Shown in pieces: positions 21,925-52,826 of a DNA stretch of 64,000 bases. The position numbers and the translations under genes are program-made. The DNA is taken from assembly GCF_007556815.1 (NCBI RefSeq), contig NZ_CP041743.1:1798001-1862000 (forward strand), given 5' to 3'. The notes beneath the pieces are model-generated. The model made no database searches. It was not told where the DNA came from and was given only the letters and a program-made list of their open reading frames with translations. This DNA comes from Paraburkholderia megapolitana. GTDB taxonomy: Bacteria; Pseudomonadota; Gammaproteobacteria; Burkholderiales; Burkholderiaceae. Position 1 is the first letter of the stretch, and each line of letters begins with the position of its first letter.

Positions 21925-22068
21925 CCTGTACGCGGGCTTCGGCGACAATGAAGCCGCAACTGGCCGCGGGTCGCGCGAACAGTCTTTCGTTCAGCCTGCA
22001 GAATCTGAGTGCATCCCGCTGGGCGGCATGCCGCTCCTTTAAGGCTTTCTCGTCCCGTCGAAGTCACC

Positions 22069-23448: not shown

Positions 23449-23453
23449 CGGGC

Positions 23454-24631: not shown

Positions 24632-24668
24632 GAGCGGTTGCACATGCAACGCAACAGCATGCGTTTCT

Positions 24669-25376: not shown

Positions 25377-25468
25377 GGGCGGCCTCTATTCACGGATCGG
25401 ATTCCTTGGATGAACAATGCGCCGACCGCGTTTGCGACCGGCGCGATGCCATCATAACCAGGCGCGCT

Positions 25469-26560
25469 TCAATCGAACACTGGCGTTTCGACGCCTAGCA
25501 CCTTGTGCAGCTTCGTGCTGGTCGTCGTGTACTGCATGTGGATCTTCTTGTCCGGGAAGATGTAGGGCGCCGCGCCGAACGCGGCGAGTGCCGCTTCATG
25601 AAAGCCCGACAGGATCAGTTTCTTCTTGCCCGGATAGGTATTGATATCGCCGACGGCGAAGATGCCCGGCACGTTCGTCTCGAACTTCTCGGTGTTGACG
25701 CCGATCTGTTTGCGCTCGATGCCAAGACCCCATTGCGCAATCGGGCCAAGCTGTGGCGACAGGCCGAAGAAAACCAGCAGGTGATCGAGTTCGAGCGTGC
25801 GTGTCACGCCATCGCCACCCGTTACCTTGAGCCGATGCAGCGCGTCGCCGCGATCTTCGAAACCGTTGACCTGGCCGATCAGGCATTGCATCGACATCTC
25901 GTCGCACAGCGCGCGCATCTTCGCCACCGAAGCAGGCGCCGCGCGGAAATCGTCGCGCCGGTGCACGAGCACGACGCTTTGCGCGACGTCGACCAGATTG
26001 AGTGCCCAGTCCAGCGCCGAATCGCCGCCGCCGCAGATTACGATGTCTTTGTCGCGAAAGAGTTCGGGGTCGCGTACCCGGTAAAACAGCTGCCGCCCAT
26101 GATGCCTGTCGATACCGGGCACTTTCAGCGTGCGCGGCTGGAATGAGCCGACGCCGGCGGCGATGAAGATGGTCTTCGTGATGAATTCGGTGTTTTTGCT
26201 CGTACGCACAAAGAAGCGTCCGTCGTCGAGACGCTCGACAGTCTGTACTTCCTGTCCAAGATGAAACGTCGCGCCGAACGGCTCGATCTGCTTCATCAGG
26301 TTGTCAGCGAGTTCCTGTCCAGTGCACATGGGCACGGCGGGAATGTCATAGATCGGTTTGTCCGGATACAACTCGACGCACTGACCACCGACCACCGGCA
26401 GCGAATCGATTACATGAGCGCGAATTTCCAGCAGGCCCAGTTCGAACACCTGGAAAAGGCCGACCGGCCCGGCACCGACGATCAATGCGTCGGTTTCGAT
26501 GGGCGTTGGCGGTTCGGCGCGGGTGACGGGCTGAGTCGGTTGATCGACGACCTCGTTCAT
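25469..26560 (-). CDS. Ferredoxin-NADP reductase, thioredoxin-reductase-like type
   Basis: This 363-residue flavoprotein has an FAD site G-A-G-P-V-G (29-34 region) and a nucleotide site [10 protein letters not shown]. The C-terminal FAD motif is [11 protein letters not shown]. It lacks the CxxC of thioredoxin reductase and so fits the YumC-type ferredoxin-NADP reductase family. It follows the ferredoxin gene by 71 bases on the same strand. The pair is divergent from the 6-hydroxynicotinate reductase gene and could deliver NADPH electrons to it; this partnership is inferred. Confidence 0.87.
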
Positions 26561-26631
26561 GGTTTCTCCTCAGAGGGGAAGGTTGAAGGAACAACAGCGA
26601 GAGAACACGCTGAAGCGTACGGCCGTGCGCT

Positions 26632-26955
26632 TCAGCGTTCCAGCATCGGCAGCTTGTCCGTCACGTCTTTCCACGCGTCGGCATCGGGCAGTGGCGGCAC
26701 GGCTTTAGTGATGACAGGAAAGACGGTTGCCAGCTCCGCGTTGAGCGCGACGAAAGCCTGCTGCCCTGCAGGCAGATCGTCTTCGGCGTAAATTGCATTG
26801 ACCGGACACTCCGGAATGCACACCGCACAGTCGATGCATTCGTCGGGGTCGATCACCAGCATGTTCGGCCCGGCGTGGAAGCAATCCACGGGGCACACAT
26901 CGACGCAATCGGTATAACGACAGCGAATGCAGGCCTCGGTTACGACATGAGTCAC
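26632..26955 (-). CDS. fdxA: 7Fe ferredoxin FdxA
   Basis: This 107-residue ferredoxin has nine cysteines in the N-terminal half (C9, C12, C17, C21, C25, C40, C43, C46, C50). This gives one [3Fe-4S] and one [4Fe-4S] site as in Azotobacter ferredoxin I, with a C-terminal tail of about 50 residues. It is a low-potential electron carrier in the cytoplasm. Its place between a ferredoxin reductase and a ring reductase suggests a dedicated electron chain. Confidence 0.92.
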   Translation of the reverse strand: MTHVVTEACIRCRYTDCVDVCPVDCFHAGPNMLVIDPDECIDCAVCIPECPVNAIYAEDDLPAGQQAFVALNAELATVFPVITKAVPPLPDADAWKDVTDKLPMLER

Positions 26956-27073
26956 GGCAAGACTCCTTCTGCACGGTGCGAGACGCGCGAAATGGCGCGG
27001 CGCAGCATCGCAACCGGGTGGGGAAAAGACGTTGCGCAGTCTATTTTGATCGAGTAGATTTCAAGCAAGTTTG

Positions 27074-27091
27074 GTGTAGCGGATACTACAC
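27074..27091. promoter_or_regulatory. Inverted repeat in the fdxA-hnr divergent region
   Basis: A perfect repeat with arms GTGTAG and CTACAC around a 6-base centre lies 118 bases upstream of fdxA and 128 bases upstream of hnr. It is the best palindrome in the 264-base divergent region and a candidate operator for the TetR protein encoded at 24669-25376. Confidence 0.45.
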
Positions 27092-27219
27092 GAACGGTGA
27101 GTGACCGCAACATTTTTCAAAATTGCAGATGCTGTGTTTTGCGAGAAAGTGTCCTGAAACAAGGTGCTTTCATTCGCTGTGCAGGACCTGATGTAATGTC
27201 GTCGTATGGAACCCCACCC

Positions 27220-28818
27220 ATGACTGAACATACGAAGGTCGATTTCGGTGCAGATCGTGTCGATGGCGCTACTGCCACGACGCCCGGTCCGACCGTGCTC
27301 GAAAAAGCCGCGCCGCGCAGCGAGCGGATGGCGGTGAACAAGATCGAATGCAATGCGTGCCCCGTGTTGTGCCAGATATCGGAAGGGCGCACCGGCGCCT
27401 GCGATCGCTATGCGAACGCGGATGGCCGGCTGATCCGCGTCGACCCGGTGTGTTTCGTGTCGCGCGCGACCGATGCGACTGAGCCGACGGCGATCGGTTT
27501 TAGCGCAGGTGCGGATGCGCAGGCGCAGACCAGTGCCGACAACAGCGCTCCGTTATTTGTAACCGGTGTTGGCGCATCGTCCACTTACCCCGACTACAAG
27601 CCCGCGCCGTTCATCGTGTCGTCGCAGCATGAGGGCGTCGATATGGTGACGGTCGTCACCGAAGGCATCTTCAGCTACTGCAGCTTCAAGGTGAAAATCG
27701 ACACCGACCGCTTTCTCGGGCCGGAACAATCGAATGTGCGTTGCCATGGTGAGATCGTCGGCCACGTGACGACCGCCGAATACGGCTCGCAGATGCTGAG
27801 CCTTGGCGGCGTGCACCACCTGACGGGCGGCAGCAAGAAAGAAGGGCGCGTGACCTGCGACATGATGCTCGCGCTTGGCAACAAGGAAGCGGTTGAACTG
27901 ACGATCGACGGCGGTGCGAGCCTCGTGATTCGCGCAGGCGCTGCGCCGGTTGTCGATGGTGTCGAAGAGCGGCGTATGCGGGTGGGTTGCGGTTCGGCCA
28001 CGATCGGCATCTTTGCCAAACAGTGGTTCGGTCATGTCGACGAAGTCGTCGTCGTCGACGATCACATTACCGGTGTGCTGACAGAGCATCAGGCAGGGCG
28101 CTGTCTCGGCATGACGCGCTCGGGTCTGAAAATCCGTGGCCGCAAATCGACACCGGGCCGCTACTTTCAGGTGGCAAACCCCGGCACCGGCTGGGGCGGC
28201 ACCGACATCCAGGACCCGCTCGCGATCGTCGAAGGATTTGATCCGGCAGTGGCACGTCCCGGCATGCGCATCTTGATGGTGTCGACGACCGGCGAACACG
28301 CGCAATGGTATGAACTCGACAGCGACCTGGTGCCGCGGCCCGCGCAGATGCCCGACACCGTACGTCAGACCGTCGAGCGGATCGGCGAGAACTGCGAGCC
28401 GTCGCTGGCCACCGTGCTGTTCATTGGCGGTGCGGGCGGCAGTCTGCGCGCGGGCGCGACCGAGAACCCGGTGCGTCTCACGCGTGCGATCAAGGAGCGT
28501 CTCGTCAACGTGACATGCGGCGGTGCGCCCGCCTATGTATGGCCCGGCGGTGGCATCACAGTCATGGTGGATGTGGCGCGGATGCCCGATCGTTCGTTTG
28601 GCACCGTGCCGACACCGGCGATCGTCGCCCCGATCGAATTCTCGATGACGCTCGATGCCTATCGCGAGCTCGGTGGTCACATGGATGCGATCAGACCGCT
28701 TGCAGACGTGCTTGCGCATGGGCCTGAGCATCTCGAAGGCGCGCCGCTCGCACGCCGCACGCTTGCTCGTCATCCCGACAACCCGTGGCCGCTCGGTATG
28801 CCACCGATGCTCGGATAA
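27220..28818 (+). CDS. hnr: 6-Hydroxynicotinate reductase-like Fe-S flavoprotein
   Basis: This 532-residue protein reduces 6-hydroxynicotinate to 6-oxo-1,4,5,6-tetrahydronicotinate in the reductive nicotinate pathway. The family call is my recognition of the overall sequence and is supported by the enamidase gene in the same operon. Cysteines C44, C47, C51 and C61 form a likely [4Fe-4S] site near the N-terminus. A segment S-L-R-A-G-A-T (T414, codon 28459-28461) resembles the G-A-T sites where ApbE enzymes attach FMN. The E. barkeri enzyme is known to carry covalent flavin. The ATG at 27220 is chosen; 27196 is possible. It is the first gene of an eleven-gene operon on the plus strand. Confidence 0.8.
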   Translation: MTEHTKVDFGADRVDGATATTPGPTVLEKAAPRSERMAVNKIECNACPVLCQISEGRTGACDRYANADGRLIRVDPVCFVSRATDATEPTAIGFSAGADAQAQTSADNSAPLFVTGVGASSTYPDYKPAPFIVSSQHEGVDMVTVVTEGIFSYCSFKVKIDTDRFLGPEQSNVRCHGEIVGHVTTAEYGSQMLSLGGVHHLTGGSKKEGRVTCDMMLALGNKEAVELTIDGGASLVIRAGAAPVVDGVEERRMRVGCGSATIGIFAKQWFGHVDEVVVVDDHITGVLTEHQAGRCLGMTRSGLKIRGRKSTPGRYFQVANPGTGWGGTDIQDPLAIVEGFDPAVARPGMRILMVSTTGEHAQWYELDSDLVPRPAQMPDTVRQTVERIGENCEPSLATVLFIGGAGGSLRAGATENPVRLTRAIKERLVNVTCGGAPAYVWPGGGITVMVDVARMPDRSFGTVPTPAIVAPIEFSMTLDAYRELGGHMDAIRPLADVLAHGPEHLEGAPLARRTLARHPDNPWPLGMPPMLG

Positions 28819-28823
28819 GCACG

Positions 28824-29867
28824 ATGTCCAATGTCACTGCCCGCACGCATGCGCACACCGCAACCGCAACCGAAACGGCTGCGAGCGGTGCGACGCGCAG
28901 GCGTCTCGACGATGGCCGCTGGCATCTGCAGCATGGACCGATCGATCTGATCGTCGGCGCCGATGGCGACGAGGCTGCGGTACTCGCCGCGCACGATGCT
29001 TGCTGGCAGCGCTTCACGGTCGTACTCGGCGAACTCGTTACAGAACTACCGCTGCTGCGTACACGAGTACCGCAAACGTCGACATACGAAGACAACCCAT
29101 GCCAGGGACCGATTGCACGACGCATGTGGTCCGCATGTCATCCGCATCGCGCAAACTACATCACGCCAATGGCAGCGGTAGCCGGCAGCGTTGCTGACGA
29201 GCTGATCCAGGCGTTCATGCGGCCCGGCGTCGCGCGCGCATTCGTGAACAACGGCGGCGACATCGCGCTGCATCTCACCGCTGGCCAGCATTACAGGATC
29301 GGTGTGTTCGCCGATCTCTCGGCATTTCTCGGCCCAAACCATCAAGCAGCACTCGACGGCAGCCTGACGCTCGACGCGACGATGGCTGTGCGCGGCATCG
29401 CAACGAGCGGCTGGCGCGGGCGCAGCTTCAGTCTCGGCATCGCCGACAGCGCCACCGTGCTGGCACGCACGGCGGCTGTTGCAGATGCGTCGGCGACGAT
29501 CGTTGCAAATGCAATCAACCTGGACGATGCGAGCATCGTCCGGCGCCCCGCGTCGTCACTGAAAGACGACAGCGATCTCGGCGATCTGGCCGTCACCGTC
29601 GATGTACCGCCGTTGCCTCAACCGTCGATCGATCTCGCCCTCACACGCGGCGCGCAAACAGCGCAGCAGTTGTGCGACGATGGCACGATCGAAGGCGCAG
29701 CGCTATTCCTGCAACATAGCGCGCGTACCGTAGGCTTTCCCGAACACGACGTTCGCCACGTCGCGTCACGATTCACCGAATCCATTTTCGCGCCGCCGGA
29801 CGCAGCAGGTCCGGGCCGCCATCCTCACTCACCGGAGGCATCGTGTTTGAAATACGCCGCGTGTTGA
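28824..29867 (+). CDS. UPF0280 (ApbE-like) protein, candidate flavin transferase
   Basis: This 347-residue protein is related to the ApbE flavin-transferase fold. Features are A-A-V-A-G-S-V-A-D-E-L and V-N-N-G-G-D-I-A-L-H-L in the centre, G-I-A-T-S-G-W-R-G-R-S-F-S-L-G-I-A-D-S-A-T-V and A-A-V-A-D-A-S-A-T-I-V-A-N in the second half. These match the A-x-G-S-x-A-D and N-x-G-G-D blocks of ApbE. The start is 5 bases after the reductase stop. A role in covalent flavinylation of that reductase fits both fold and position, but is unproved. The last 25 bases overlap the next gene. Confidence 0.78.
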   Translation: MSNVTARTHAHTATATETAASGATRRRLDDGRWHLQHGPIDLIVGADGDEAAVLAAHDACWQRFTVVLGELVTELPLLRTRVPQTSTYEDNPCQGPIARRMWSACHPHRANYITPMAAVAGSVADELIQAFMRPGVARAFVNNGGDIALHLTAGQHYRIGVFADLSAFLGPNHQAALDGSLTLDATMAVRGIATSGWRGRSFSLGIADSATVLARTAAVADASATIVANAINLDDASIVRRPASSLKDDSDLGDLAVTVDVPPLPQPSIDLALTRGAQTAQQLCDDGTIEGAALFLQHSARTVGFPEHDVRHVASRFTESIFAPPDAAGPGRHPHSPEASCLKYAAC

Positions 29868-30433
29868 CACACGTCGAAGACATTTTTCACGAGTTCGGTC
29901 CGCCGCCCGCGCATCCGCTTAGACGCGGCACGTTGGCCGCGGTGATGAAGAACCCGTTTGCCGGCCGCTACGAACCCGAGATCCAGCACGCGATGGAACT
30001 GCTGAAACCGATTGGCGTGACGCTCGCCGGCCAGTTGCTTGCGGCGATGGCGGTTCCGCACGCTGCGATCGAGGGCTATGGCAAGGGAGCCATCATCGGC
30101 GCGGCGGGCGAGCTCGAACACGGTGCGCTGTGGCACGTTCCCGGCGGCTATGCGATGCGCGAGCTGCTTGAGAAAAATGGCGTACCGACCAACGCAATCG
30201 TGCCATCCGCGAAGAAGGTTGGGGCGCCCTCAACGGCACTCGATGTACCCATGACCCACGTTAACGCGAGCTACGTGCGCAGCCACTTCGACGCAATCGA
30301 AGTGCGTGTGCCCGGCGCGCCCGCCGCGGACGAAATCGTCTATATCCTCGCGATGAGCACGGGGCAGCGCGTACATGCGCGTGTGGGCGGCCTGGCGAAA
30401 GAAGCGATCGCCGGCAAGGACGGGCTGCGCTGA
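29843..30433 (+). CDS. DUF1185 (amino-acid-synthesis family) protein, copy 1
   Basis: This 196-residue protein has the family motif G-Y-G-K-G-A-I-I-G-A-A-G-E-L-E-H (about 74-89) and P-S-A-K-K-V-G with V-N-A-S-Y-V-R-S-H-F-D-A downstream. No biochemical function is known to me. It begins with GTG at 29843 inside the end of the UPF0280 gene. A second copy follows after 66 bases. Two different paralogues in one operon suggest a heteromeric enzyme or two related steps in ring or side-product processing. Confidence 0.8.
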   Translation: MFEIRRVLTHVEDIFHEFGPPPAHPLRRGTLAAVMKNPFAGRYEPEIQHAMELLKPIGVTLAGQLLAAMAVPHAAIEGYGKGAIIGAAGELEHGALWHVPGGYAMRELLEKNGVPTNAIVPSAKKVGAPSTALDVPMTHVNASYVRSHFDAIEVRVPGAPAADEIVYILAMSTGQRVHARVGGLAKEAIAGKDGLR

Positions 30434-30499
30434 CCTGTTGTATGCACCGCATCGCCAGGACAGCCTCGTTATAGAACGAATCGATAGAAGGAGAGCAAT

Positions 30500-31084
30500 A
30501 TGGCAATCAAGCTTCGCAAGCTGATCGTGCAGGTGGACGAGACGCGCATCGAAATGGGCCAGACCATCGATCCACCGCTGCGTCGCGCGGTGGCGATCGC
30601 GGTGATCGACAATCCGTACGCGGGCCGCTATGTGCCGCAGCTCGATGCACTGATCGAAGCCGGCGAGGAACTCGGCGGCCTGCTCGGTCAGCGTTGTGTC
30701 GAAGCGCTCGGCATCGAACCGGGCGAGGCGCAGAGTTACGGCAAGGCAGCGATCGTCGGTGAAGCGGGCGAACTCGAACACGCCGCGGCGATCCTGCATC
30801 CGAAGCTCGGTGCACCGTTGCGCGCGGCTGTGCAGAAGGGCGCGGCGCTCGTGCCGTCGGCGAAGAAGATGGGTACGCTCGGCACCGCCATCGACGTGCC
30901 GCTCGGCCACAAGGATGCTGCATACGTGCGTAGCCATTTCGATGCGATCGAGGCACGCGTCGCCGATGCGCCGCGTGCGAACGAGATCGTCGTCGCAGTC
31001 GCAGTGACGGCGGGTGGCCGGCCGTTGGCGCGCATCGGTGGATTGCAGGCGAGCGAGATCAAGGGCGAAGACGGTTTGCGCTGA
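30500..31084 (+). CDS. DUF1185 (amino-acid-synthesis family) protein, copy 2
   Basis: This 194-residue paralogue of the previous protein shares S-Y-G-K-A-A-I-V-G-E-A-G-E-L-E-H, V-P-S-A-K-K-M-G and the A-A-Y-V-R-S-H-F-D-A-I-E-A-R-V block. The two copies are clearly divergent, so this is an old duplication kept in the operon. The start ATG has AAGGAGAG upstream. A function in nicotinate catabolism is suggested only by position. Confidence 0.82.
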   Translation: MAIKLRKLIVQVDETRIEMGQTIDPPLRRAVAIAVIDNPYAGRYVPQLDALIEAGEELGGLLGQRCVEALGIEPGEAQSYGKAAIVGEAGELEHAAAILHPKLGAPLRAAVQKGAALVPSAKKMGTLGTAIDVPLGHKDAAYVRSHFDAIEARVADAPRANEIVVAVAVTAGGRPLARIGGLQASEIKGEDGLR

Positions 31085-31155
31085 TTTATTTCGCTGGTAG
31101 TGTCCAGCCGTGTACGTGCGGTCGATGTGCCTTCCAGGAAGTCGTTGAGGACCCG

Positions 31156-33117
31156 ATGCTTTCGAATCTTCTGGTACAACTCGTCAACGGACTCGCCGAT
31201 GCGTCCGCGCTGTTTCTGGTCGCGGCGGGTCTGTCGCTGATTTTCGGCGTGACGCGCATTGTCAACTTTGCGCACGGCTCGTTCTATATGGTCGGCGTCT
31301 ATGTCGCGTACACGTTGACGAGCCGCTTCGGCGCGACGATGGGCGGGTTCTGGCTGTCGGTGCTCGGCGCCGCGCTCGCCGTGGCCATACTCGGCGCACT
31401 CGTCGAGTTCGTCGTGCTTCGACGCATCTACCAGGCGCCTGAACTGTTCCATCTGCTCGCGACGTTTGCGCTCGTGCTGATCTTCCGCGATGCGACGTTG
31501 TGGCTCTGGGGTCCGGAGGATCTGTTTGGGCCGCGCGCTCCGCATCTGGCCGGCGCGGTGAATCTGCTCGGGCACGCAGCGCCCACCTACGATCTGCTGC
31601 TGATCGTGATCGGACCTGTCGTGCTGTTGCTGCTCTGGTACGCACTGACGCGCACGCGCTGGGGCACGCTGGTGCGTGCCGCGACGCAGGATCGCGAGAT
31701 GCTTGGCGCGCTCGGCATCAATCAGGCGTGGCTCTTTACCGGTGTGTTCTTCGCCGGTGCGTTTCTCGCGGGGCTCGGCGGTGCATTGCAGGGGCCGCGC
31801 ATGTCCGCGAATCTCTCACTCGATCTGGATACGATCGGCAATGCGTTTGTCGTTGTCGTAGTCGGCGGGATGGGCTCGATTCCGGGCGCTTTTGTCGCGG
31901 CGCTGCTGATCGCGGAAATCAAGGCGCTCTGCATCGGTATTGGACATGTGTCGATCGGCGGAATCGATCTGTCGTTGAGCCGGTTCACACTCGTCGCTGA
32001 GTTTGTCGTGATGGCGATCGTGCTTGTCGTGCGGCCGTGGGGTTTGCTCGGTCGTGCCAGCGCTGCCGTTCGCGCGATGGCCGCGCCGGAAGCGCCGCTG
32101 CGGCCCGCGGGCCGACGCTTGCGCTGGCTTGCGGCGTTCGTAGCTTTAGTACTGGTGCTCGCACCGCTCGCGGCCAATGCGTTTCCGTATATGCCGGTGC
32201 TGCTCGTCGAAATACTGATTGCCGTGCTGTTCGCTGCGAGCCTGCATTTCATCATGGGGCCCGGCGGGATGCATTCGTTTGGACACGCAGCCTATTTTGG
32301 GCTCGGTGCTTATGGCGCTGCGTTGTTTCTGAAAGTGCTTGCTCTGCCGATGGAGGTCGCACTGCTGCTAGGTCCGTTGCTCGCGGCTGGCGGTGCAATC
32401 GTGTTCGGCTGGTTTTGCGTGCGGCTATCCGGCGTCTATCTGGCGATGCTGACGCTCGCGTTTGCGCAGATCGTGTGGTCGGTGGTGTTCCAGTGGGATG
32501 ACGTGACGGGGGGGAGCAATGGCTTGCTTGGTCTCTGGCCGTCGAACTGGCTGTCTTCGCCGGTTGCGTACTACTACCTGACGCTTGCATGCGTTGCGCT
32601 CGGCGTGTGGCTTTTGCGTCGAATGCTGTTCTCGCCGCTCGGCTACGCGATGCGTGCGTCGCGCGACTCGGTACTGCGTGCCGAAGCGATCGGTATCGAT
32701 GTGAAGCGCGTGCAATGGGCCGCGTTTGTGATCGCATCGCTGTTTTGCGGCCTTGCCGGTTCGCTGTATGCATTCTCGAAAGGAACGATCTCGCCGGAAG
32801 TGATCAGCGTGAGCCGCTCCGTCGACGGGCTCGTGATGGTGCTGCTCGGCGGTTTGCAAACGTTGACCGGTCCGGTGGTCGGCGCCGCGGTATTCACCTG
32901 GCTGCAGGACACGGTTGCGCGGCAAACCGACTACTGGCAGGCGTTGCTCGGGCTCGCCATTCTGTTGCTGGTGATCGCGTTTCCTCAGGGTATCGTCGGT
33001 TTTGTGCGCGAGCGGTTCGGCAACGATGACGTCGAGCCGAAGAATGGTGCCGCGCATCCTTCTTCTGAGGCCGGTGCAACTGCGTCGGCCGCAGCAGCGA
33101 TGAAGGAGGGCCTATGA
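31156..33117 (+). CDS. Fused Liv-type ABC permease (LivH-LivM)
   Basis: This 653-residue membrane protein combines two permeases normally encoded separately. Residues 1-300 are LivH-like (F-G-V-T-R-I-V-N-F-A-H-G-S-F-Y) and residues 320-630 are LivM-like (G-P-G-G-M-H-S-F-G-H-A-A-Y-F-G-L-G-A-Y). The pair forms the channel of a branched-chain amino acid-type importer. With livG, livF and the binding protein at 40186 it makes a full transporter. The operon context suggests nicotinate or a related heterocyclic acid as the solute. It overlaps livG by four bases. Confidence 0.9.
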   Translation: MLSNLLVQLVNGLADASALFLVAAGLSLIFGVTRIVNFAHGSFYMVGVYVAYTLTSRFGATMGGFWLSVLGAALAVAILGALVEFVVLRRIYQAPELFHLLATFALVLIFRDATLWLWGPEDLFGPRAPHLAGAVNLLGHAAPTYDLLLIVIGPVVLLLLWYALTRTRWGTLVRAATQDREMLGALGINQAWLFTGVFFAGAFLAGLGGALQGPRMSANLSLDLDTIGNAFVVVVVGGMGSIPGAFVAALLIAEIKALCIGIGHVSIGGIDLSLSRFTLVAEFVVMAIVLVVRPWGLLGRASAAVRAMAAPEAPLRPAGRRLRWLAAFVALVLVLAPLAANAFPYMPVLLVEILIAVLFAASLHFIMGPGGMHSFGHAAYFGLGAYGAALFLKVLALPMEVALLLGPLLAAGGAIVFGWFCVRLSGVYLAMLTLAFAQIVWSVVFQWDDVTGGSNGLLGLWPSNWLSSPVAYYYLTLACVALGVWLLRRMLFSPLGYAMRASRDSVLRAEAIGIDVKRVQWAAFVIASLFCGLAGSLYAFSKGTISPEVISVSRSVDGLVMVLLGGLQTLTGPVVGAAVFTWLQDTVARQTDYWQALLGLAILLLVIAFPQGIVGFVRERFGNDDVEPKNGAAHPSSEAGATASAAAAMKEGL

Positions 33118-33920
33118 GCCTGCTGCGCGTAACCGGGCTGTCGAAATCGTTCGGCGGATTGACGGCTGTCGACGGCGTGTCCTTCGATCTCGCCGCAGGC
33201 CAGCTGCTCGCGCTGCTGGGACCGAACGGCGCGGGCAAGTCGACCTGCTTCAACATGGTCAACGGACAACTGCGTCCTTCGGCGGGATCGATCCAGCTCG
33301 ACGGTCACGAACTGGTCGGTATGCGCCCTCGCGATATCTGGCGACTCGGCGTGGGCCGGACCTTCCAGATCGCGGCCACCTTCAACTCGATGACCGTGCT
33401 CGAAAACGTGCAGATGGCATTGGTGTCGTACGAACGCAAGTTGTTTGGCTTGTGGAAACCGGCACGCTCGTGGCATGCGGACGAAGCGTTCAGTTTGCTC
33501 GAACAGGTCGGCATGGCCGCGGATGCAAATCGTTCCTGCGGCGTGCTCGCTTATGGCGACGTGAAGCGCGTCGAACTCGCCATCGCGCTCGCAAACCGGC
33601 CGAAACTGCTATTGATGGACGAACCGACCGCAGGCATGGCACCGAAGGAGCGCAACGCATTGATGGCGCTTACGCGGCAACTGGTCACTGAGCGCAACAT
33701 CGGCGTGCTGTTCACCGAACACAGCATGGACGTGGTGTTCGCGTACGCCGACCGGATGATCGTGCTCGCGCGCGGCAAACTGATTGCCGAAGGTGACGCG
33801 GACACGATTCGCAACGATCCGCGCGTGCAGGAAGTGTATTTCGGCACGGGTAAGACGTTCCAGCCGCGTGCAGCGTTGAATCACGCGGCCGCGCCGACGA
33901 ACCAGGGAGCGCTGCAATGA
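33114..33920 (+). CDS. Liv-type ABC ATPase (LivG)
   Basis: This 268-residue ATPase has Walker A G-P-N-G-A-G-K-S-T (about 38-46) and Walker B L-L-L-M-D-E-P. The signature region reads L-A-Y-G-D-V-K-R-V-E, the usual degenerate form in LivG. It overlaps both neighbours in ATGA junctions, so LivHM, LivG and LivF are translationally coupled. Confidence 0.92.
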   Translation: MSLLRVTGLSKSFGGLTAVDGVSFDLAAGQLLALLGPNGAGKSTCFNMVNGQLRPSAGSIQLDGHELVGMRPRDIWRLGVGRTFQIAATFNSMTVLENVQMALVSYERKLFGLWKPARSWHADEAFSLLEQVGMAADANRSCGVLAYGDVKRVELAIALANRPKLLLMDEPTAGMAPKERNALMALTRQLVTERNIGVLFTEHSMDVVFAYADRMIVLARGKLIAEGDADTIRNDPRVQEVYFGTGKTFQPRAALNHAAAPTNQGALQ

Positions 33921-34630
33921 GCGAAGCGCTGCTGAAAGTATCCGGCCTTAATGCGTTCTACGGACGCGCGCATATCCTGTTCGACGTGAATCTCGAAGTC
34001 GGCCGAGGCGAAGTCGTCGCGCTGATGGGCCGCAACGGCGCTGGCAAATCGACCACGATGAAAGCGGTGATGGGTCTGCTGCCGCGGCGCCAGGGCCACG
34101 TCACGTTTCGCGGCACGGATATCGGTGCGCTGCCGCCGTACCGCATCTCGCGCATGGGTATGGGCTTCGTGCCGGAAGATCGGCGCGTGTTCGCCGATCT
34201 CACGGTGATGGAGAACCTCGATACCGGTCGTCAACCGCCGCGCGAAGGCGCACCGCAATGGACGCCCGACAAACTGTTCCGCCTGTTTCCGAATCTCGGC
34301 GAAATGCCGCAGCGTCCCGGCGGACAGATGAGCGGCGGCGAACAGCAGATGCTCACCGTATCGCGCACGCTAATGGGCAATCCCTATCTCGTGCTGCTCG
34401 ACGAGCCCTCGGAAGGCGTTGCTCCCGTAATCGTCGAGCAGATGGCGAACATGATTCTCGAACTCAAACGCGAGGGGCTCTCCATCCTGCTGTCGGAGCA
34501 GAACCTGCACTTCGCCGAACTCGTGAGCGACCGCGCGTATGTGCTCGAAAAAGGGCAGATCCGCTTCAGCGGGACGATCGACGAACTCGCAAAGAACGAA
34601 ACGGTCAGGCGCGCGTATCTGAGCGTCTGA
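33917..34630 (+). CDS. Liv-type ABC ATPase (LivF)
   Basis: This 237-residue ATPase has Walker A G-R-N-G-A-G-K-S-T, signature M-S-G-G-E-Q-Q-M and Walker B L-V-L-L-D-E-P-S-E-G. The V-P-E-D-R-R-V-F block is typical of LivF. It is the second ATPase of the importer. The enamidase gene follows after 54 bases with AAGGAGG at its ribosome site. Confidence 0.93.
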   Translation: MSEALLKVSGLNAFYGRAHILFDVNLEVGRGEVVALMGRNGAGKSTTMKAVMGLLPRRQGHVTFRGTDIGALPPYRISRMGMGFVPEDRRVFADLTVMENLDTGRQPPREGAPQWTPDKLFRLFPNLGEMPQRPGGQMSGGEQQMLTVSRTLMGNPYLVLLDEPSEGVAPVIVEQMANMILELKREGLSILLSEQNLHFAELVSDRAYVLEKGQIRFSGTIDELAKNETVRRAYLSV

Positions 34631-34684
34631 CGCCGGCAGCACGGTATTCCACACCGCGCTGCGTCGTCGCACAAGGAGGAACAG

Positions 34685-35884
34685 ATGGCAGTTGAGACGT
34701 TGGCAGGCACATCGGGCAAGGTCGTCGTGAAGCGCATCGGCCTCTTGCTGTCGGGCGATATCGATCACCCCGTACTCGATGCGGACACGCTCGTGATCGA
34801 CGACGGGGCGATTGTTGCAATCGGCCGCGAAAAGGATTGCGACACGGAAGGCGCGCTGACGACGATCGATTGCAAGGGCACAGCGGTGGCGCCTGGTCTG
34901 ATCGATTCACACGTGCACCCGGTGTTCGGCGACTGGACACCGCGACAGAATCAGATGGGCTGGATCGAGTCGAACCTGAACGGTGGCGTGACGACGATGA
35001 TCTCTGCGGGCGAGGTGCATTTGCCCGGCCGCCCGAAAGACATCGTCGGTGTGAAGGCGCTGGCGATTACCGCGCAACGTTCGTTCGAAGGGATGCGCGG
35101 GGCGGGCGTGGGCGGCGGCGTGAAAGTGCTGGCGGGTGCGCCGATCATCGAAAAAGGCATGGTCGAAGCCGACTTCAAGGAGCTTGCCGAGGCGGGCGTG
35201 AAGCTGCTCGGCGAAGTGGGACTCGGCAGCGTGAAAGCCGGTGAGGAAGCGGCGCAGATGGTTGCGTGGGCACGCAAGTACGGCATCCAGAGCACGATTC
35301 ACACGGGCGGTCCGTCGATTCCCGGCTCAGGCCTGATCGACAAGGACGTCGTGCTTGCCGCCGACGCCGACGTGATTGGCCACATCAACGGCGGCCATAC
35401 GTCGCTGTCATATCGTCATGTGTGCGACCTGTGCGAGCAATCGAGCCGCGCGCTCGAAATCGTCCACAACGGCAATGAACGCATTGCACTGCTTACAGCG
35501 CGTCACGCCATCGAACTGAAGTGCCCGCATCGCATCATCCTCGGTACCGACAGCCCGGCTGGCTCGGGCGTGCAACCGCTCGGCATCCTGCGGATGATCG
35601 CGCTGATCTCGAGCCTCGCCGACGTGCCCGCCGAAATCGCTTTCTGCTTTGCGACCGGCAACACCGCGCGCCAACGCAATCTGCGCCAGGGGTTGATCGA
35701 AGTGGGCCGTCCCGCCGATCTCGTGTTCATGGATCGCGCGCAGCACACCGCGGGCGCGACGCTGCTCCAAAGCGTGCAGCTCGGCGATATTCCGGGGGTG
35801 GGGATGGTGATGATCGACGGATTGATCCGCTGTCGTCGCAGCCGCAATACGCCGCCCGCGACCGAAGTACCGGTCGTCCTGTAG
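34685..35884 (+). CDS. ena: Enamidase (6-oxo-1,4,5,6-tetrahydronicotinate hydrolase)
   Basis: This 399-residue amidohydrolase opens 6-oxo-1,4,5,6-tetrahydronicotinate to 2-formylglutarate and ammonia in the known E. barkeri enzyme. Metal ligands are in D-S-H-V-H, H-T-G-G, G-H-I-N-G-G-H and G-T-D-S-P-A-G-S-G. Blocks I recognise from the E. barkeri enamidase include G-G-V-T-T-M-I-S-A-G, P-G-R-P-K-D-I-V-G-V-K-A-L-A-I-T, E-V-G-L-G and the C-terminal S-R-N-T-P-P-A. Together with hnr it defines the reductive route. Start ATG 34685 follows AAGGAGG. Confidence 0.88.
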   Translation: MAVETLAGTSGKVVVKRIGLLLSGDIDHPVLDADTLVIDDGAIVAIGREKDCDTEGALTTIDCKGTAVAPGLIDSHVHPVFGDWTPRQNQMGWIESNLNGGVTTMISAGEVHLPGRPKDIVGVKALAITAQRSFEGMRGAGVGGGVKVLAGAPIIEKGMVEADFKELAEAGVKLLGEVGLGSVKAGEEAAQMVAWARKYGIQSTIHTGGPSIPGSGLIDKDVVLAADADVIGHINGGHTSLSYRHVCDLCEQSSRALEIVHNGNERIALLTARHAIELKCPHRIILGTDSPAGSGVQPLGILRMIALISSLADVPAEIAFCFATGNTARQRNLRQGLIEVGRPADLVFMDRAQHTAGATLLQSVQLGDIPGVGMVMIDGLIRCRRSRNTPPATEVPVVL

Positions 35885-35918
35885 GCACGGCGCGCTTACG
35901 CCTACGCCGCCGCCCGCG

Positions 35919-36467
35919 ATGAACCGCACCGCTACCCTGACGCTCGATGTGAACGGTGCGTCGCACACGCTCGCCGCCGATCCCGATACACCTCTGCTGT
36001 ATTTGCTGCGTAACGATCTCGCGTTGAACGGGCCGAAGTTTGGCTGCGGGCTCGGCGAGTGCGGCGCGTGTACGGTGCTGCTCGACGGCATGCCGACGCG
36101 CTCGTGTGTGACGACGGCGCGGGTCGCACAGGGGCGTGCGATTACGACGCTCGAAGGGCTTGGTACACGCGCCGCGCCGCATCCGGTGCAGCAGGCATTC
36201 ATCGACGAACAGGCCGCGCAGTGCGGCTACTGCCTGAACGGCATGATCATGACCACGAAGGCGCTGCTCGACCGCGACCCGACACCTGCGCTCGACACGA
36301 TCCGGCGTGAGCTGTCGCGTAATCTGTGCCGCTGCGGTACGCACGTCGAGATCCTGCGCGCGGTGCAGCGTGCAGTGCAGTTGCTGGCCGAGGCACGCGA
36401 CAAGGCGCATCAAGCGGCGCTCGCAGACCAACGCCCGCCTGAGCACATCGCCGGAGATCGCTCGTGA
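35919..36467 (+). CDS. nicA: Nicotinate dehydrogenase small subunit ([2Fe-2S]) NicA
   Basis: This 182-residue protein has two [2Fe-2S] clusters. The plant-ferredoxin-type site is G-C-G-L-G-E-C-G-A-C-T-V and the second is C-G-Y-C-L-N-G ... C-R-C-G-T. It passes electrons from the molybdenum centre of the large subunit to its haems. A C-terminal tail of about 25 residues is longer than in the P. putida protein. It overlaps the next gene (GTGA). Confidence 0.9.
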   Translation: MNRTATLTLDVNGASHTLAADPDTPLLYLLRNDLALNGPKFGCGLGECGACTVLLDGMPTRSCVTTARVAQGRAITTLEGLGTRAAPHPVQQAFIDEQAAQCGYCLNGMIMTTKALLDRDPTPALDTIRRELSRNLCRCGTHVEILRAVQRAVQLLAEARDKAHQAALADQRPPEHIAGDRS

Positions 36468-39400
36468 CCGGCCCCGAATTCGGCGTACCGCGCGATCCAC
36501 AGCCTGGTTCAACTTCGCCGCAGCGGCTCGATTTCGCCTCGAACGTGCTGATCATCACGCGCATGCCGCAGGCACCGGTGCAGCCCGCGCCGGGTCAGCC
36601 CGGTTCGCGCTCGTCGTTTGTGCCGACGCAGACCGAGATGTTCGTCGTCGTACGCGGCGACGGTAGCGTTGTCGCGTTCAACGGCCACGTCGATCTCGGT
36701 ACCGGCATCGGCACAGCGCTTGCGCAGATCGTTGCCGAAGAACTCGACGTGCCGCTGACGCGCGTATCGATCGTGCTCGGCCATACGCGCGAGGCGCCGA
36801 ACCAGGGGCCAACCATTGCGAGCGCGACGATCCAGATTTCCGCTGTGCCGCTGCGCGCCGCCGCAGCGCAGGCACGCCGTTTTCTCGTCGCTGAGGCGGC
36901 GAAGCACTTTGCACTCGACACCGAAGCGCTGGCGGTGCGCGACGGCGTCGTCTATCCGCGCGACGCGGCACCCGCACAAGGCATCGGCTATGGCGAACTG
37001 ATCGCGGGGCGCCGCATCGAATTGCCACTGGTGCTCGATACGCCGGTGAAGTCGCCTGACGACTACCGGGTCGTCGGCCGTAGTACGCCGCGTATTGACA
37101 TCCCCGCGAAAGCTACCGGCGAGCCGGTGTTCGTGCACGACGTCCGCGTGCCCGGCATGCTGCATGGCCGCGTGGTGCGGCCGCCGTATGCGGGCGTCGC
37201 GCAGGGCGACTTCATCGGTCGGTCGTTGTTGCACGTGGACGAAGCATCGATCGCCGATCTGCCTGGTATCGTGAAGGTCGTCGTGATCCGCGATTTCGTC
37301 GGGATCGTCGCCGAGCGCGAAGAGATCGCGCAACAGGCGGCGCGCCGTCTGCACGTGCGCTGGAAACCCTACGACGAACTGCCGCCGCTAGAAACGAGCG
37401 AGCAGGTCGAAGCCGCGTTGCGCGCGAATCCGTCGAAGCGGCGCGACCTCGTGATCGAAGGCGACGTCGACGCGGCGCTTGGACAGACCGATGACACGTT
37501 GCAACGCACGTATGTCTGGCCGTTCCAGATGCACGCGTCGATCGGACCGTCGTGCGCGGTTGCCGACTATCGCGAAGGTTCACTGAAGGTCTGGTCCGGT
37601 ACGCAGAACCCGCACTCGATGCGTGCCGATCTCGCGCTGCTGCTCGCACTCGACGAAGCGCAGATCGAAGTCGTCCGCATGGACGCGTCCGGTTGCTATG
37701 GCCGCAACTGCGCGGACGATGTCGTGGCCGACGCGGCATTGCTGTCGCGTGCGGTCGGCGTACCGGTGCGCGTGCAACTATCACGTGAAGACGAACATGC
37801 GTGGGAGCCCAAAGGCGCGGCGCAATTGATGGACGTGCGCGGCGCACTCGATAGCGAAGGGCAGCTTGCCGGTTACGACTTCTCGACACGCTATCCGTCC
37901 AACGATGCACCGACGCTAGCCCTGCTGCTCACAGGCACGATCTCGCCGCAACCGCAGGTGTTCGAGATGGGCGACCGGACGGCGGTGCCGCCCTACGACT
38001 ACAAGACGATGCGTATCGTCTGCGACGACACGCCGCCGATCGTGCGTGCATCGTGGCTGCGCGGTGTGTCGGCATTGCCGAATACGTTTGCACACGAATC
38101 GTTCATCGACGAACTGGCTGTGCAGGCGGGGATCGATCCGGTGGCGTTTCGCTTGCAACATCTAACCGATCCGCGCGCCATCGATCTGGTGAAAGCAGTG
38201 GCCGAGCGGGCGGACTGGGTTCCGCGGCGCGCCGCGACATCGCCCGATGAAGCACGCGAAGCAGAAGCCGCCGATCAAGGCGACATTCTGCGCGGCCGCG
38301 GCTTTGCCTATGCACGCTACGTACACAGTAAGTTTCCCGGTTTCGGCGCCGCATGGTCCGCATGGGTCGCGGACGTCGAAGTGAACCGGCGCAGCGGCGA
38401 ACTGGCGGTGACGCGTGTCGTCGTCGGCCAGGATACCGGCATGATGGTGAACCCCGGCGGCGTACGTCACCAGATTCACGGCAACGTGATCCAGGCGACG
38501 AGCCGCGCGCTGAAAGAGCGTGTGACGTTCAGCGATAACGCGGTGACGAGCCAGGAGTGGGGCGCGTATCCGATCCTCACGTTTCGCGAGGTGCCGGTCA
38601 TCGACGTCGTGATGATGCCGCGCCACGGCGAGCCACCGATGGGCGCCGGCGAATCTGCGTCGCTGCCTGGCGCGGCGGCGATTGCGAATGCACTGTTCGA
38701 TGCGACCGGCGTGCGGTTTCGCCGGCCGCCATTTACGCCCGAAGTAATTCGCGCGGCACTTGCCGATGCGCAGGCCGAAGAGGCGAGGGCGCGCAGAAAG
38801 AAGCGCTGGCGTTTCGGCTTTTTCGGTGCGCTCGCGGCAGGTGCGGTGGGCTGGCTCGGTGCGTTGTCGCTCGCACCGCAACCGATTGCACCGATCGCCA
38901 CACCGCTAGCGAGTTCGTTCGCCCCTGAGCTGATCGCGCGCGGCAAACTGCTCGCCGCTGCCGGCGACTGTGCGGTGTGTCACACCGCGCGCAACGGCGT
39001 GCCGAACGCGGGCGGCCATCCGCTCGCGACACCGTTCGGCACGGTCTACAGCACCAACATCACACCCGATTCACAGACCGGCATCGGCAACTGGTCGCTC
39101 GAAGCATTTACGCGCGCGATGCGACAAGGCATCCATCGCGACGGACGGCACCTGTACCCTGCGTTTCCCTACACGTCGTTCCAGAACGTCTCCGACGACG
39201 ACATGAAAGCGCTCTACGCGTACCTGATGGCGCAGACGCCGGTACGTTCGCGACCGCCGCAAACATCGCTCGCGTTCCCATTTAATGTGAGACCGCTGAT
39301 GGCGGTGTGGAACAGCCTGTTCCTCACGCGTACAGCCGTCGCAAGCAATCCGGCGCAGAGCGCGCAGTGGAATCGCGGGGCGTATCTCGTGAACGGGCTC

Positions 39401-40099
39401 GGGCATTGCAGCGCGTGTCACTCGCCGCGCAACGCATTCGGTGCGGAGCGCACAGGTGCGGCGTTTCTCGGTGGCGGCACCGCGGACGGCTGGCAGGCAC
39501 CGGCTTTAACCGCGTTGTCCGACGCACCGATACCGTGGACCGAAGACGAACTGTTCAGCTATCTGCGCTTTGGTCACGCACCGCTGCACGGTGTGGCCGC
39601 GGGGCCGATGGGGCCGGTAGTGAGCGAACTTGCGGAACTGCCCGACAGCGATATTCGCGCGATGGCTACGTACCTAGCGTCGTTCACACCAGTGGAAGCG
39701 AACGCGAACCCGCATGCGCTTGCGCAAGAGTACGAGCAGGCGAGCAGCCAGATATCGACGGCGACGGGCCTCGGCGCGCGGCTCTTCGACGGCGCCTGCG
39801 CGGCCTGCCACCATACCGGCAGCGGACCGCAACTGTTCGGTGCGCATCCATCGCTTGCGCTCAATACGAACCTGCACGGCGCGGTGCCCGACAATCTGAT
39901 TCGCGTGATACTCGACGGTATCGGCTCGCCGGCGCGGCCCGAACTCGGTACGATGCCGGCTTACCGCGACAGCTTCAACGATGCGCAGGTCGCCGAACTC
40001 GTGTCGTACCTGCGGCAGCAGTTCGCGGGCGGCAAGCCCGCATGGCGGAACGTCGAAGCGACAGTCGCGCGAATCCGCGCCACGCCGCACGCCGACTAA
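36464..40099 (+). CDS. nicB: Nicotinate dehydrogenase large subunit (Mo domain plus three haem c) NicB
   Basis: This 1211-residue protein hydroxylates nicotinate to 6-hydroxynicotinate. Residues 1 to about 765 form the IorB/xanthine-dehydrogenase-like molybdopterin domain, including G-H-V-D-L-G-T-G-I-G-T-A-L-A-Q-I and G-A-G-E-S-A-S-L-P-G-A. A hydrophobic helix at about 784-805 is followed by three cytochrome c motifs: C836-A-V-C-H, C982-S-A-C-H and C1112-A-A-C-H. Length and layout match P. putida NicB (about 1190 residues), where electrons leave through cytochrome c to a terminal oxidase. No FAD subunit is needed. It starts with GTG overlapping the nicA stop. Confidence 0.9.
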   Translation: MTGPEFGVPRDPQPGSTSPQRLDFASNVLIITRMPQAPVQPAPGQPGSRSSFVPTQTEMFVVVRGDGSVVAFNGHVDLGTGIGTALAQIVAEELDVPLTRVSIVLGHTREAPNQGPTIASATIQISAVPLRAAAAQARRFLVAEAAKHFALDTEALAVRDGVVYPRDAAPAQGIGYGELIAGRRIELPLVLDTPVKSPDDYRVVGRSTPRIDIPAKATGEPVFVHDVRVPGMLHGRVVRPPYAGVAQGDFIGRSLLHVDEASIADLPGIVKVVVIRDFVGIVAEREEIAQQAARRLHVRWKPYDELPPLETSEQVEAALRANPSKRRDLVIEGDVDAALGQTDDTLQRTYVWPFQMHASIGPSCAVADYREGSLKVWSGTQNPHSMRADLALLLALDEAQIEVVRMDASGCYGRNCADDVVADAALLSRAVGVPVRVQLSREDEHAWEPKGAAQLMDVRGALDSEGQLAGYDFSTRYPSNDAPTLALLLTGTISPQPQVFEMGDRTAVPPYDYKTMRIVCDDTPPIVRASWLRGVSALPNTFAHESFIDELAVQAGIDPVAFRLQHLTDPRAIDLVKAVAERADWVPRRAATSPDEAREAEAADQGDILRGRGFAYARYVHSKFPGFGAAWSAWVADVEVNRRSGELAVTRVVVGQDTGMMVNPGGVRHQIHGNVIQATSRALKERVTFSDNAVTSQEWGAYPILTFREVPVIDVVMMPRHGEPPMGAGESASLPGAAAIANALFDATGVRFRRPPFTPEVIRAALADAQAEEARARRKKRWRFGFFGALAAGAVGWLGALSLAPQPIAPIATPLASSFAPELIARGKLLAAAGDCAVCHTARNGVPNAGGHPLATPFGTVYSTNITPDSQTGIGNWSLEAFTRAMRQGIHRDGRHLYPAFPYTSFQNVSDDDMKALYAYLMAQTPVRSRPPQTSLAFPFNVRPLMAVWNSLFLTRTAVASNPAQSAQWNRGAYLVNGLGHCSACHSPRNAFGAERTGAAFLGGGTADGWQAPALTALSDAPIPWTEDELFSYLRFGHAPLHGVAAGPMGPVVSELAELPDSDIRAMATYLASFTPVEANANPHALAQEYEQASSQISTATGLGARLFDGACAACHHTGSGPQLFGAHPSLALNTNLHGAVPDNLIRVILDGIGSPARPELGTMPAYRDSFNDAQVAELVSYLRQQFAGGKPAWRNVEATVARIRATPHAD

Positions 40100-40185
40100 G
40101 CCGCACCGCACGACGACGCTTCGCACCCGGTTTCAGCAGTCCGTATTCCTGTATTCCCGCATTTCCACCAATAACGGAGAAACGC

Positions 40186-41403
40186 ATGACCACGCGCGCA
40201 GGATGGATGACCCAACTCACTCGCTGCCTTGTTCCGTTGACGCTGTCGCTGGCCGCCACGGGCGCGTTTGCACAGCAGACGATCAAGATCGGCGAGATCA
40301 ACAGCTACAAGGCGCAGCCCGCCTTTCTCGGCCCCTACAAGAATGGCTGGAACCTCGCGCTCGACCAGGTGAACGCCGCGGGCGGGGTGCTCGGCAAGCA
40401 GCTCGAAGTCGTATCGCGGGACGATAACGGCAACCCTGGCGACACGATTCGCGTCGCGCAGGAGCTGATTGCGCGCGAACAGGTGCAACTGCTGTTCGGC
40501 GGCTTCCTGTCGAACACCGGGCTCGCGTTGACCGATTTCGCGAAGCAGCGCCACATCTTCTTCCTCGCTGCCGAGCCGCTGACCGACAAGATCGTCTGGG
40601 CCGACGGCAACAAATACACGTACCGTCTACGGCCATCCACCTACATGCAGGTCGCGATGCTCGTGCCCGAAGCGGCGAAGCTGCACAAGCAGCGCTGGGC
40701 GCTCGTCTATCCGAACTATGAGTACGGGCAGTCGGCAGTGGCGACGTTCAAGAAATTGTTGAAGGCCGCGCAACCCGATGTGCAGTTCGTCACGGAACAG
40801 GCGACGCCGCTCGGCAATCTCGACGCCGGCGCAGTCACCCAGGCGCTCGCGGACGCGAAGCCCGATGCGATCTTCAACGTGCTGTTCGGCGCGGACCTCG
40901 GCAAGTTCGTTCGCGAAGGCAATACGCGCGGGCTATTCAAGGATCGCAGTGTCGTATCGCTGCTGACTGGTGAGCCCGATTACCTCGACCCGTTGGGCGC
41001 AGAAGCGCCGACTGGCTGGATCGTGACGGGCTACCCGTGGTACTCGATCGACACTCCCGCGAACAAGACTTTCGTCGATGCGTACCGTGCGAAGTATCAC
41101 GACTATCCGCGGCTTGGATCGGTGGTGGGGTACTCGGCGCTGATGTCGATTGCGGACGGCCTGAAGAAAGCCGGCTCGACCGATCCGGACAAACTGGCGG
41201 CCGCGTTCAAGGGGCTTGACGTGGATACGCCGTTCGGACCGATCGTCTACCGCGCGCAGGACAATCAGTCGACGATGGGCGCGTATGTCGGCGTGACCGG
41301 GCTGAAGGACGGCAAGGGTGTGATGACGTCGTTCAGGTATGTAGACGGTGCGAGCGTGCAACCGCCCGATGCCGATGTGAAGAAGATGCGTCCGGCGGAC
41401 TGA
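40186..41403 (+). CDS. Liv-type ABC substrate-binding protein
   Basis: This 405-residue periplasmic protein has a signal peptide of about 29 residues ending in A-F-A. Its type I binding fold resembles LivK and urea/aromatic-acid binding proteins (I-K-I-G-E-I-N-S-Y at the mature start). It closes the operon whose permease and ATPases lie at 31156-34630, separated by ena and nicAB. That arrangement ties the importer to the nicotinate pathway. Start ATG 40186 follows CGGAG. Confidence 0.9.
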   Translation: MTTRAGWMTQLTRCLVPLTLSLAATGAFAQQTIKIGEINSYKAQPAFLGPYKNGWNLALDQVNAAGGVLGKQLEVVSRDDNGNPGDTIRVAQELIAREQVQLLFGGFLSNTGLALTDFAKQRHIFFLAAEPLTDKIVWADGNKYTYRLRPSTYMQVAMLVPEAAKLHKQRWALVYPNYEYGQSAVATFKKLLKAAQPDVQFVTEQATPLGNLDAGAVTQALADAKPDAIFNVLFGADLGKFVREGNTRGLFKDRSVVSLLTGEPDYLDPLGAEAPTGWIVTGYPWYSIDTPANKTFVDAYRAKYHDYPRLGSVVGYSALMSIADGLKKAGSTDPDKLAAAFKGLDVDTPFGPIVYRAQDNQSTMGAYVGVTGLKDGKGVMTSFRYVDGASVQPPDADVKKMRPAD

Positions 41404-41467
41404 GCGCGTCTGGAGCAGGTAGGGCCGCTTCGCTGATTTCGTTTGCGAGGCGGCCCGTTATACGACG

Positions 41468-50293: not shown

Positions 50294-52817
<2,524 letters not shown>

Positions 52818-52826
52818 GGGGCGAAC

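Follow-up and report, generated by a model that had tools for sequence, protein, structure and literature searches.

We examined a stretch of 64,000 nt (the window, whose positions serve as coordinates throughout) on contig C1 of a 7.6-Mb betaproteobacterial genome of three contigs, calling genes from Pfam and NCBIfam scans together with the translations. On its plus strand a run of genes from 27196 (or 27220, depending on the start codon of the first) to 41403 encodes 6-hydroxynicotinate reductase (Hnr), a UPF0280 protein, two PF06684 proteins, the permease and two ATPases of an ATP-binding cassette (ABC) transporter, an enamidase, the hydroxylase subunits NicA and NicB, and a binding protein (Table 1). 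Its intergenic gaps are of 86 bases or fewer and some are negative, so that the run is probably one operon. Divergent from it lie the minus-strand genes for an FdxA-type ferredoxin, a thioredoxin-reductase-type flavoprotein and a TetR protein. We read the run, from its gene content, as a nicotinate catabolic operon in which respiratory hydroxylation would be followed by reductive ring opening (probability about 0.8). An earlier interpretation from the letters alone (the sequence-only reading) had located the enamidase gene, nicAB with its three CxxCH motifs and hnr where we find them; the ferredoxin gene was absent from its gene list.

Table 1. Features of the nicotinate locus and its divergent neighbours, in window positions.
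Feature	Position	Strand	Basis or remark
TetR-family regulator, probable regulator	24669..25376	-	Pfam TetR_N and TetR_C_29; in 15 of 17 compared loci
fnr, thioredoxin-reductase-type flavoprotein, probable ferredoxin-NADP+ reductase	25469..26560	-	Pyr_redox_2; NCBIfam TRX_reduct far under cut-off
FdxA-type ferredoxin, 107 amino acids, GTG start	26632..26955	-	translation
Inverted repeat GTGTAG-CGGATA-CTACAC, candidate operator	27074..27091	.	conserved block upstream of hnr
hnr, 6-hydroxynicotinate reductase, form without N-terminal ferredoxin module	27196..28818	+	ATG at 27196 (540 amino acids) or 27220 (532 amino acids)
UPF0280 protein, divergent from ApbE but related to it; proposed factor for Hnr maturation	28824..29867	+	NF003322, 388 bits; ApbE PF02424, 26.8 bits
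PF06684 (AA_synth, DUF1185) paralogue 1	29843..30433	+	profile scans
PF06684 paralogue 2, better match to anaerobe copies	30500..31084	+	Pfam, locus comparison
Fused LivH/LivM-type ABC permease	31156..33117	+	Pfam, NCBIfam
LivG-type ABC ATPase	33114..33920	+	Pfam
LivF-type ABC ATPase	33917..34630	+	Pfam
ena, enamidase	34685..35884	+	match to solved E. barkeri enzyme 2vun
nicA, [2Fe-2S] subunit of nicotinate hydroxylase	35919..36467	+	Pfam; 66% identity to Pseudomonas plasmid NicA
nicB, molybdopterin subunit with hydrophobic segment and tri-haem cytochrome c domain	36464..40099	+	Pfam, motifs
Periplasmic substrate-binding protein of ABC transporter	40186..41403	+	Peripla_BP_6

The enamidase aligns with the solved E. 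barkeri enzyme over residues 12–395 at 48% identity (E 3.5e-108), bearing out the closeness claimed for it in the sequence-only reading. It keeps HxH, GEVG, HTGG, HINGG and a later Asp, which we take to be the metal ligands. NicA and NicB have the two-subunit make-up of NicAB, a [2Fe-2S] protein and a molybdenum subunit fused to a tri-haem cytochrome c; in NicB, molybdopterin and cytochrome c domains are combined, CxxCH stands at residues 836, 982 and 1112, and a hydrophobic segment (786–804) lies ahead of the cytochrome part. Both resemble proteins that a Pseudomonas plasmid encodes within a nic-type cluster for the oxidative route, NicA at the identity given in Table 1 and NicB at 56% over 1197 aligned columns, and nicotinate is the substrate that we infer for them. 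On the plasmid their neighbours encode a 2,5-dihydroxypyridine dioxygenase, a FAD-dependent monooxygenase, an alpha/beta hydrolase, an Asp/Glu racemase, an amidohydrolase and a MarR regulator, presumably nicX, C, D, E, F and R; Azospirillum lipoferum has the same arrangement. That 6-hydroxynicotinate is here degraded mainly in this oxidative way, through NicC and NicX, with hnr and the enamidase gene serving something else, we consider highly improbable. The genome does encode a NicC-like monooxygenase (43% identical) on another replicon; of eight nic queries, however, NicC alone matches in the 18-kb stretch around that gene, and NicX has no match in the genome, although the same query finds it in four of 59 related genomes, three of them congeners, one of which (G017) also bears hnr.

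The cluster is widely kept. hnr was found in 17 of the 59 related genomes and, counting its own genome, in 15 of 35 from the same genus, most likely Paraburkholderia, the source of the nearest named Hnr. Side by side we compared 17 loci including the window, 15 from the same genus and two from other families. The gene order, the ferredoxin/flavoprotein pair excepted, is identical in 14 intact same-genus loci including the window (for two of the other 13 the fetched stretch stops ahead of the binding-protein gene), which argues that the cluster is no chance assembly; the arrangement is different in the two loci of other families. The locus L104 (genome G008) holds a broken cluster, with the hnr match in two pieces, one ATPase gene unmatched and other genes shortened. 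Further afield, a sample of 200 Burkholderiales genomes has hnr in 19, and the gene is also present in alphaproteobacterial loci and on 26 plasmid records. Most of the window set is present in Azorhizobium doebereinerae (L081) and in two Afipia loci (L077 and L085), whose fetched stretches are incomplete.

Homology of hnr, on which the sequence-only reading had let its pathway depend, held in the profile search, and many of the best relatives of the window Hnr are named 6-hydroxynicotinate reductase by NCBI. The protein itself has no Pfam hit and its family no Pfam model of its own; 44 aligned Hnr sequences gave hits to Fer4-type families, the most frequent of these in 21 sequences, along with weak hits to GCV_T_C in 16 and one odd hit, and the Hnr profile matched nothing among solved structures below E 0.19. 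Loci for comparison came from GTDB species genomes scanned with the E. barkeri and window enamidases, the best 80 of at least 576 confirmed relatives being kept, and their lifestyles were judged from lineage names. The window Hnr is 38–45% identical to those of L009–L056, which are mostly of anaerobic lineages by name and do not include the E. barkeri Hnr.

Gene identities, order, conservation and co-occurrence are read directly from the sequences, as is the presence or absence of an N-terminal ferredoxin module in Hnr, scored by counting CxxCxxC in the N-terminal stretch after extending it upstream in frame to the preceding stop. The module is found in 41 of 43 Hnr from L009–L058 and in none of 33 from L059–L104; the window Hnr, with no CxxCxxC at its N-terminus and no Fer4 hit, is without it. 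One exception in the first range, L057, groups with the module-less clade, and the other, L053, is a long branch placed among the module-bearing sequences. A tree was built from 75 Hnr; in it the other module-less sequences, numbering 34, split off at a branch with support 100/100, and a single change that would include L053 is supported by only 57/11. Read without a root, the tree would allow either loss or gain of the module.

The flavoprotein divergent from hnr is probably, by family assignment, a ferredoxin-NADP+ reductase (FNR) of the thioredoxin-reductase type; its gene had been tried as a candidate for hnr and was rejected as such. Nothing else in the genome matches it above 30% identity. 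Genes for thioredoxin-reductase-type FNR, Fpr-type FNR or FdxA stand at 13 of the 40 module-less Hnr loci and at none of the 42 module-bearing ones (p 2.7e-5), for median stretch lengths, over all loci of the two ranges, of 20.1 and 20.7 kb. Of the 40, 14 come from a single genus and four are plasmid loci hand-picked from the 26 hits; three of these four supplied the Fpr queries and so match by construction. Without the four the count is 10/36 against 0/42 (p 2.0e-4), and with Paraburkholderia also counted once it is 7/23 (p 3.5e-4). A further 18 enamidase loci have no full Hnr match; FNR occurs at one of them, L084, where the Hnr match is partial. The two kinds of FNR have no significant similarity, which points to repeated recruitment. 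Chance neighbourhood, with the electrons for Hnr coming from a housekeeping donor or another flavoprotein, would fit the presence of a second FdxA (75% identical) elsewhere in the genome and the finding that the pair adjoins hnr in only five of the 15 same-genus loci, so that it is not obligatory locally. We think this rather unlikely in view of the recurrence of two dissimilar FNR kinds and FdxA near module-less Hnr, and of none near the module-bearing.

UPF0280 (NF003322) follows Hnr closely. Of the 200 Burkholderiales genomes, 18 have both, one has UPF0280 alone, one has Hnr alone and 180 have neither (Fisher p 1.9e-23, relatedness ignored), with hits spanning 11 genera; the two discordant genomes are G160, which is 78% complete with its Hnr cut, and G118. 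The genes lie about 14 kb apart on one contig in G152 and on different contigs in G063 and G191, and therefore the link is not one of adjacency alone. Among the fetched loci UPF0280 is present at all 40 module-less and at 38 of the 42 module-bearing Hnr loci, and at two of the 18 enamidase loci that lack a full Hnr match; of the four Hnr loci from which it is absent, three (L016, L042, L045) are near a contig end and one (L032) is a real absence. A literature search on UPF0280 turned up no paper within its coverage.

The Hnr of E. barkeri contains a covalent flavin. UPF0280 matches the ApbE family just above the Pfam cut-off of 25.6 bits, over profile positions 127–238 of 266, which suggests that it attaches flavin. 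Asp146, Asp221 and Thr225 are kept in all 66 aligned UPF0280 sequences, as is Ser195 together with Asp221, and Arg200 is kept in 65 of the 66; equivalence of the latter residues to the ApbE triad of PMC12052999 was judged by eye. That source gives ApbE a catalytic Ser-His-Asp triad and a target motif D-x-x-[ST]-G-A-[ST]. The motif occurs in none of 74 Hnr, and in the same scan GCGSAT was rejected as a canonical ApbE site; the Thr within it, the nearest candidate, is A, V, M or S in nine Hnr, whose loci all have UPF0280. These last findings would suit a different accessory role for UPF0280, as an iron-sulfur factor, a folding aid or an Hnr subunit, a possibility to which we give appreciable weight while doubting it, against the above-threshold ApbE domain and the invariant Asp146, Asp221 and Thr225.

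PF06684 has a looser distribution: in the Burkholderiales set it is found in 16 of 19 Hnr genomes, in 13 of 14 enamidase genomes and in 12 of 181 without Hnr, and among the fetched loci in 14 of those 18 with enamidase and no full Hnr match. It is therefore not tied to Hnr alone, and may have a role in ring opening or the next step. Searches of solved structures with PF06684 found two uncharacterised structures; two weak matches of its profile (E 0.008 and 0.08) were taken as chance. Hnr, UPF0280, PF06684 and enamidase stand together in Firmicutes, Desulfobacterota-type and proteobacterial loci. In archaea, the stretches of two loci (L036, L056) contain Hnr, UPF0280 and enamidase and give no PF06684 match. 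Separately, three loci of Aminobacter and Mesorhizobium (L061, L065, L072) carry enamidase, PF06684 and an ABC transporter, and neither Hnr nor UPF0280 was matched within their 21 kb.

At a threshold of E 1e-70 enamidase is missing from 10 of the 19 Hnr genomes, eight of which have PF06684. Four Hnr loci without enamidase were fetched (L113, L115, L102, L103); HyuA is present at all four and HyuB at three, L113 having supplied both queries, and the best model for HyuA is caprolactamase alpha, under its cut-off. An ATP-dependent lactamase may thus take the place of enamidase at such loci. The hydroxylase also varies: an FAD-type subunit occurs at 29 of the 42 module-bearing and nine of the 40 module-less Hnr loci, and a cytochrome c domain at 17 of the latter. 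With these variations the Hnr family may serve several substrates, and the operon could act by the same chemistry on another N-heterocyclic acid, such as a substituted pyridine carboxylate. For the window we judge this quite unlikely, given the identities of NicA and NicB to the oxidative nic-type proteins and of the enamidase to a characterised enzyme, and the proposal of a related cluster in strain SG-6C for nicotinate (PMC3511419).

We thus favour nicotinate and the following scheme, in which all the reactions are predictions from homology. The liv-type ABC system would import nicotinate or a close relative. NicAB would hydroxylate it to 6-hydroxynicotinate and, by way of its cytochrome c domain, hand the electrons on to the respiratory chain. 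Hnr would then carry out a two-electron reduction of the ring, giving 6-oxo-1,4,5,6-tetrahydronicotinate. The path of the electrons to Hnr most likely runs from NADPH through FNR and the divergently encoded ferredoxin to Hnr, since the window Hnr is without the ferredoxin module of most others; the direction of flow is likewise a prediction. Ring opening by enamidase would then yield 2-formylglutarate and ammonia, with the PF06684 proteins acting in that step or the following one, and UPF0280 would be needed for active Hnr, most simply through flavin attachment. Enzymes encoded elsewhere would take 2-formylglutarate to glutarate or glutaryl-coenzyme A (CoA).

A CoA-transferase gene, whose best NCBIfam model is succinate-glutarate CoA-transferase, under cut-off, occurs at six of 40 module-less loci (one of which supplied the query), at none of 42 module-bearing ones and at two of the 18 without full Hnr; the window genome has a 52% identical relative. 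This agrees with the glutarate route that PMC3511419 describes for Azorhizobium. Hgd-like and B12-mutase-like genes occur respectively at 17 and nine of the 42 module-bearing loci, at none of the 40 module-less loci and at two and one of the 18. Twelve loci of L009–L058 encode an aldehyde dehydrogenase (for example L054, 4560–6047) whose best model, under cut-off, is a CoA-acylating methylmalonate-semialdehyde dehydrogenase, and which could turn 2-formylglutarate into glutaryl-CoA.

Several observations weigh against this scheme, besides the NicC-like gene, the scarcity of the ferredoxin/FNR pair in the genus and the missing flavinylation motif. The scheme does not account for the passage of electrons from the molybdenum domain of NicB, which has no recognised export signal, to haems that would be periplasmic. 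At 27 of the 40 module-less loci neither FNR nor FdxA was matched in the fetched stretch, with queries that would miss clostridial ferredoxins and other kinds of FNR. No gene for 2-formylglutarate was recognised within the operon. More tentatively, at a little under even odds, we propose a wider view: that Hnr is an orphan family of ring reductases dependent on UPF0280 as its own maturation enzyme, that its aerobic branch uses a separate NADPH–FNR–ferredoxin chain in place of a built-in ferredoxin, bringing ferredoxin-driven dearomatisation of the anaerobic type into respiring cells beside an oxidase-linked hydroxylation, and that the ring is then opened by enamidase or by ATP-dependent lactamase.

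The adjacent TetR gene is present at all 15 same-genus loci and at neither of the two from other families. Upstream of hnr, an inverted repeat is a candidate operator for its product; it lies in a block in which every column, one of the spacer excepted, is common to 85% or more of the upstream regions in an alignment of 14 from the same genus, and which is kept at loci with and without the ferredoxin pair. No sigma-70 promoter or terminator was matched in 26900–27260, and no Rfam family in 24000–42500.

Other genes of the window were noted in passing. Just upstream of the locus (22009–24242) are a pcaB-type 3-carboxymuconate cycloisomerase (above cut-off) and an alpha/beta hydrolase, perhaps a fragment of the protocatechuate pathway, and directly past the operon, on the opposite strand, an omega-aminotransferase (41468–42796; AptA model, above cut-off). 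A LuxR-type regulator with autoinducer-binding and GerE domains (1433–2197) adjoins a 224-residue protein with the autoinducer-binding domain only (2271–2945). A 658-residue ATP synthase alpha/beta-type protein and an ATP synthase A chain (50428–54095) possibly belong to a second rotary ATPase operon.

The sequence-only reading had proposed a hybrid of aerobic hydroxylation and anaerobic-type ring reduction. Homology and gene order give good support to its chemistry, namely hydroxylation by NicAB followed by reduction and hydrolytic opening of the ring; its novelty is not supported, the set having already been published for Alphaproteobacteria (PMC3511419). It also knew of no defined gene set in a Burkholderia relative, yet hnr is already named in Paraburkholderia records, and nearly the whole set, including a named hnr, is on a Comamonadaceae plasmid. 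Among the literature matches listed there is no description of the operon in Burkholderiales, most subscription journals lying outside the coverage. New in this analysis are the absence of the ferredoxin module from Hnr, the repeated occurrence of FNR and ferredoxin genes close by, the strong association with UPF0280 and the suggested replacement of enamidase by a lactamase. Hnr, a dearomatising enzyme familiar mainly from one fermenting anaerobe, is spread across Burkholderiales, Alphaproteobacteria and plasmids, and testable functions are offered for the uncharacterised families UPF0280 and PF06684, together with a candidate electron donor for aerobic Hnr. The operon also bears on pesticide degradation, since in strain SG-6C 6-chloronicotinate, a breakdown product of neonicotinoids, enters the same route (PMC3511419).

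Several known systems share parts of the set. With ApbE flavin transferases (PMC12052999) UPF0280 has a weak domain match in common; it is divergent, and its proposed target is without the canonical flavinylation motif. The Pseudomonas-type oxidative nic cluster (L116, L117) shares NicA and NicB, and has no hnr or enamidase annotated in those stretches; in the P. putida type, NicC decarboxylates oxidatively and NicX cleaves the ring, and Burkholderia gladioli uses this nicC/nicX route (both from PMC10269826). The fermentation cluster of E. barkeri, viewed through relatives such as Acetobacterium bakii (L009), shares hnr, enamidase, UPF0280 and PF06684; loci of its type (L009–L058) differ in the frequent FAD-type hydroxylase subunit, in the module-bearing Hnr and, in part, in having Hgd-like, B12-mutase-like, aconitase-like and PrpF genes. 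Closest is the cluster found by BLAST from that of E. barkeri and conserved, according to PMC3511419 (Shettigar 2012), in A. caulinodans ORS571, B. japonicum USDA110, R. palustris HaA2 and strain SG-6C, whose reductase is 42% identical to that of E. barkeri. Its hosts are likewise aerobic and its route likewise reductive, through tetrahydro-oxonicotinate. By comparison with the legend and text only of that source, the window differs in its betaproteobacterial host and in the thioredoxin-reductase-type FNR and FdxA divergent from hnr; and whereas A. doebereinerae (L081) has hnr and nicAB on opposite strands, the window carries them on one.

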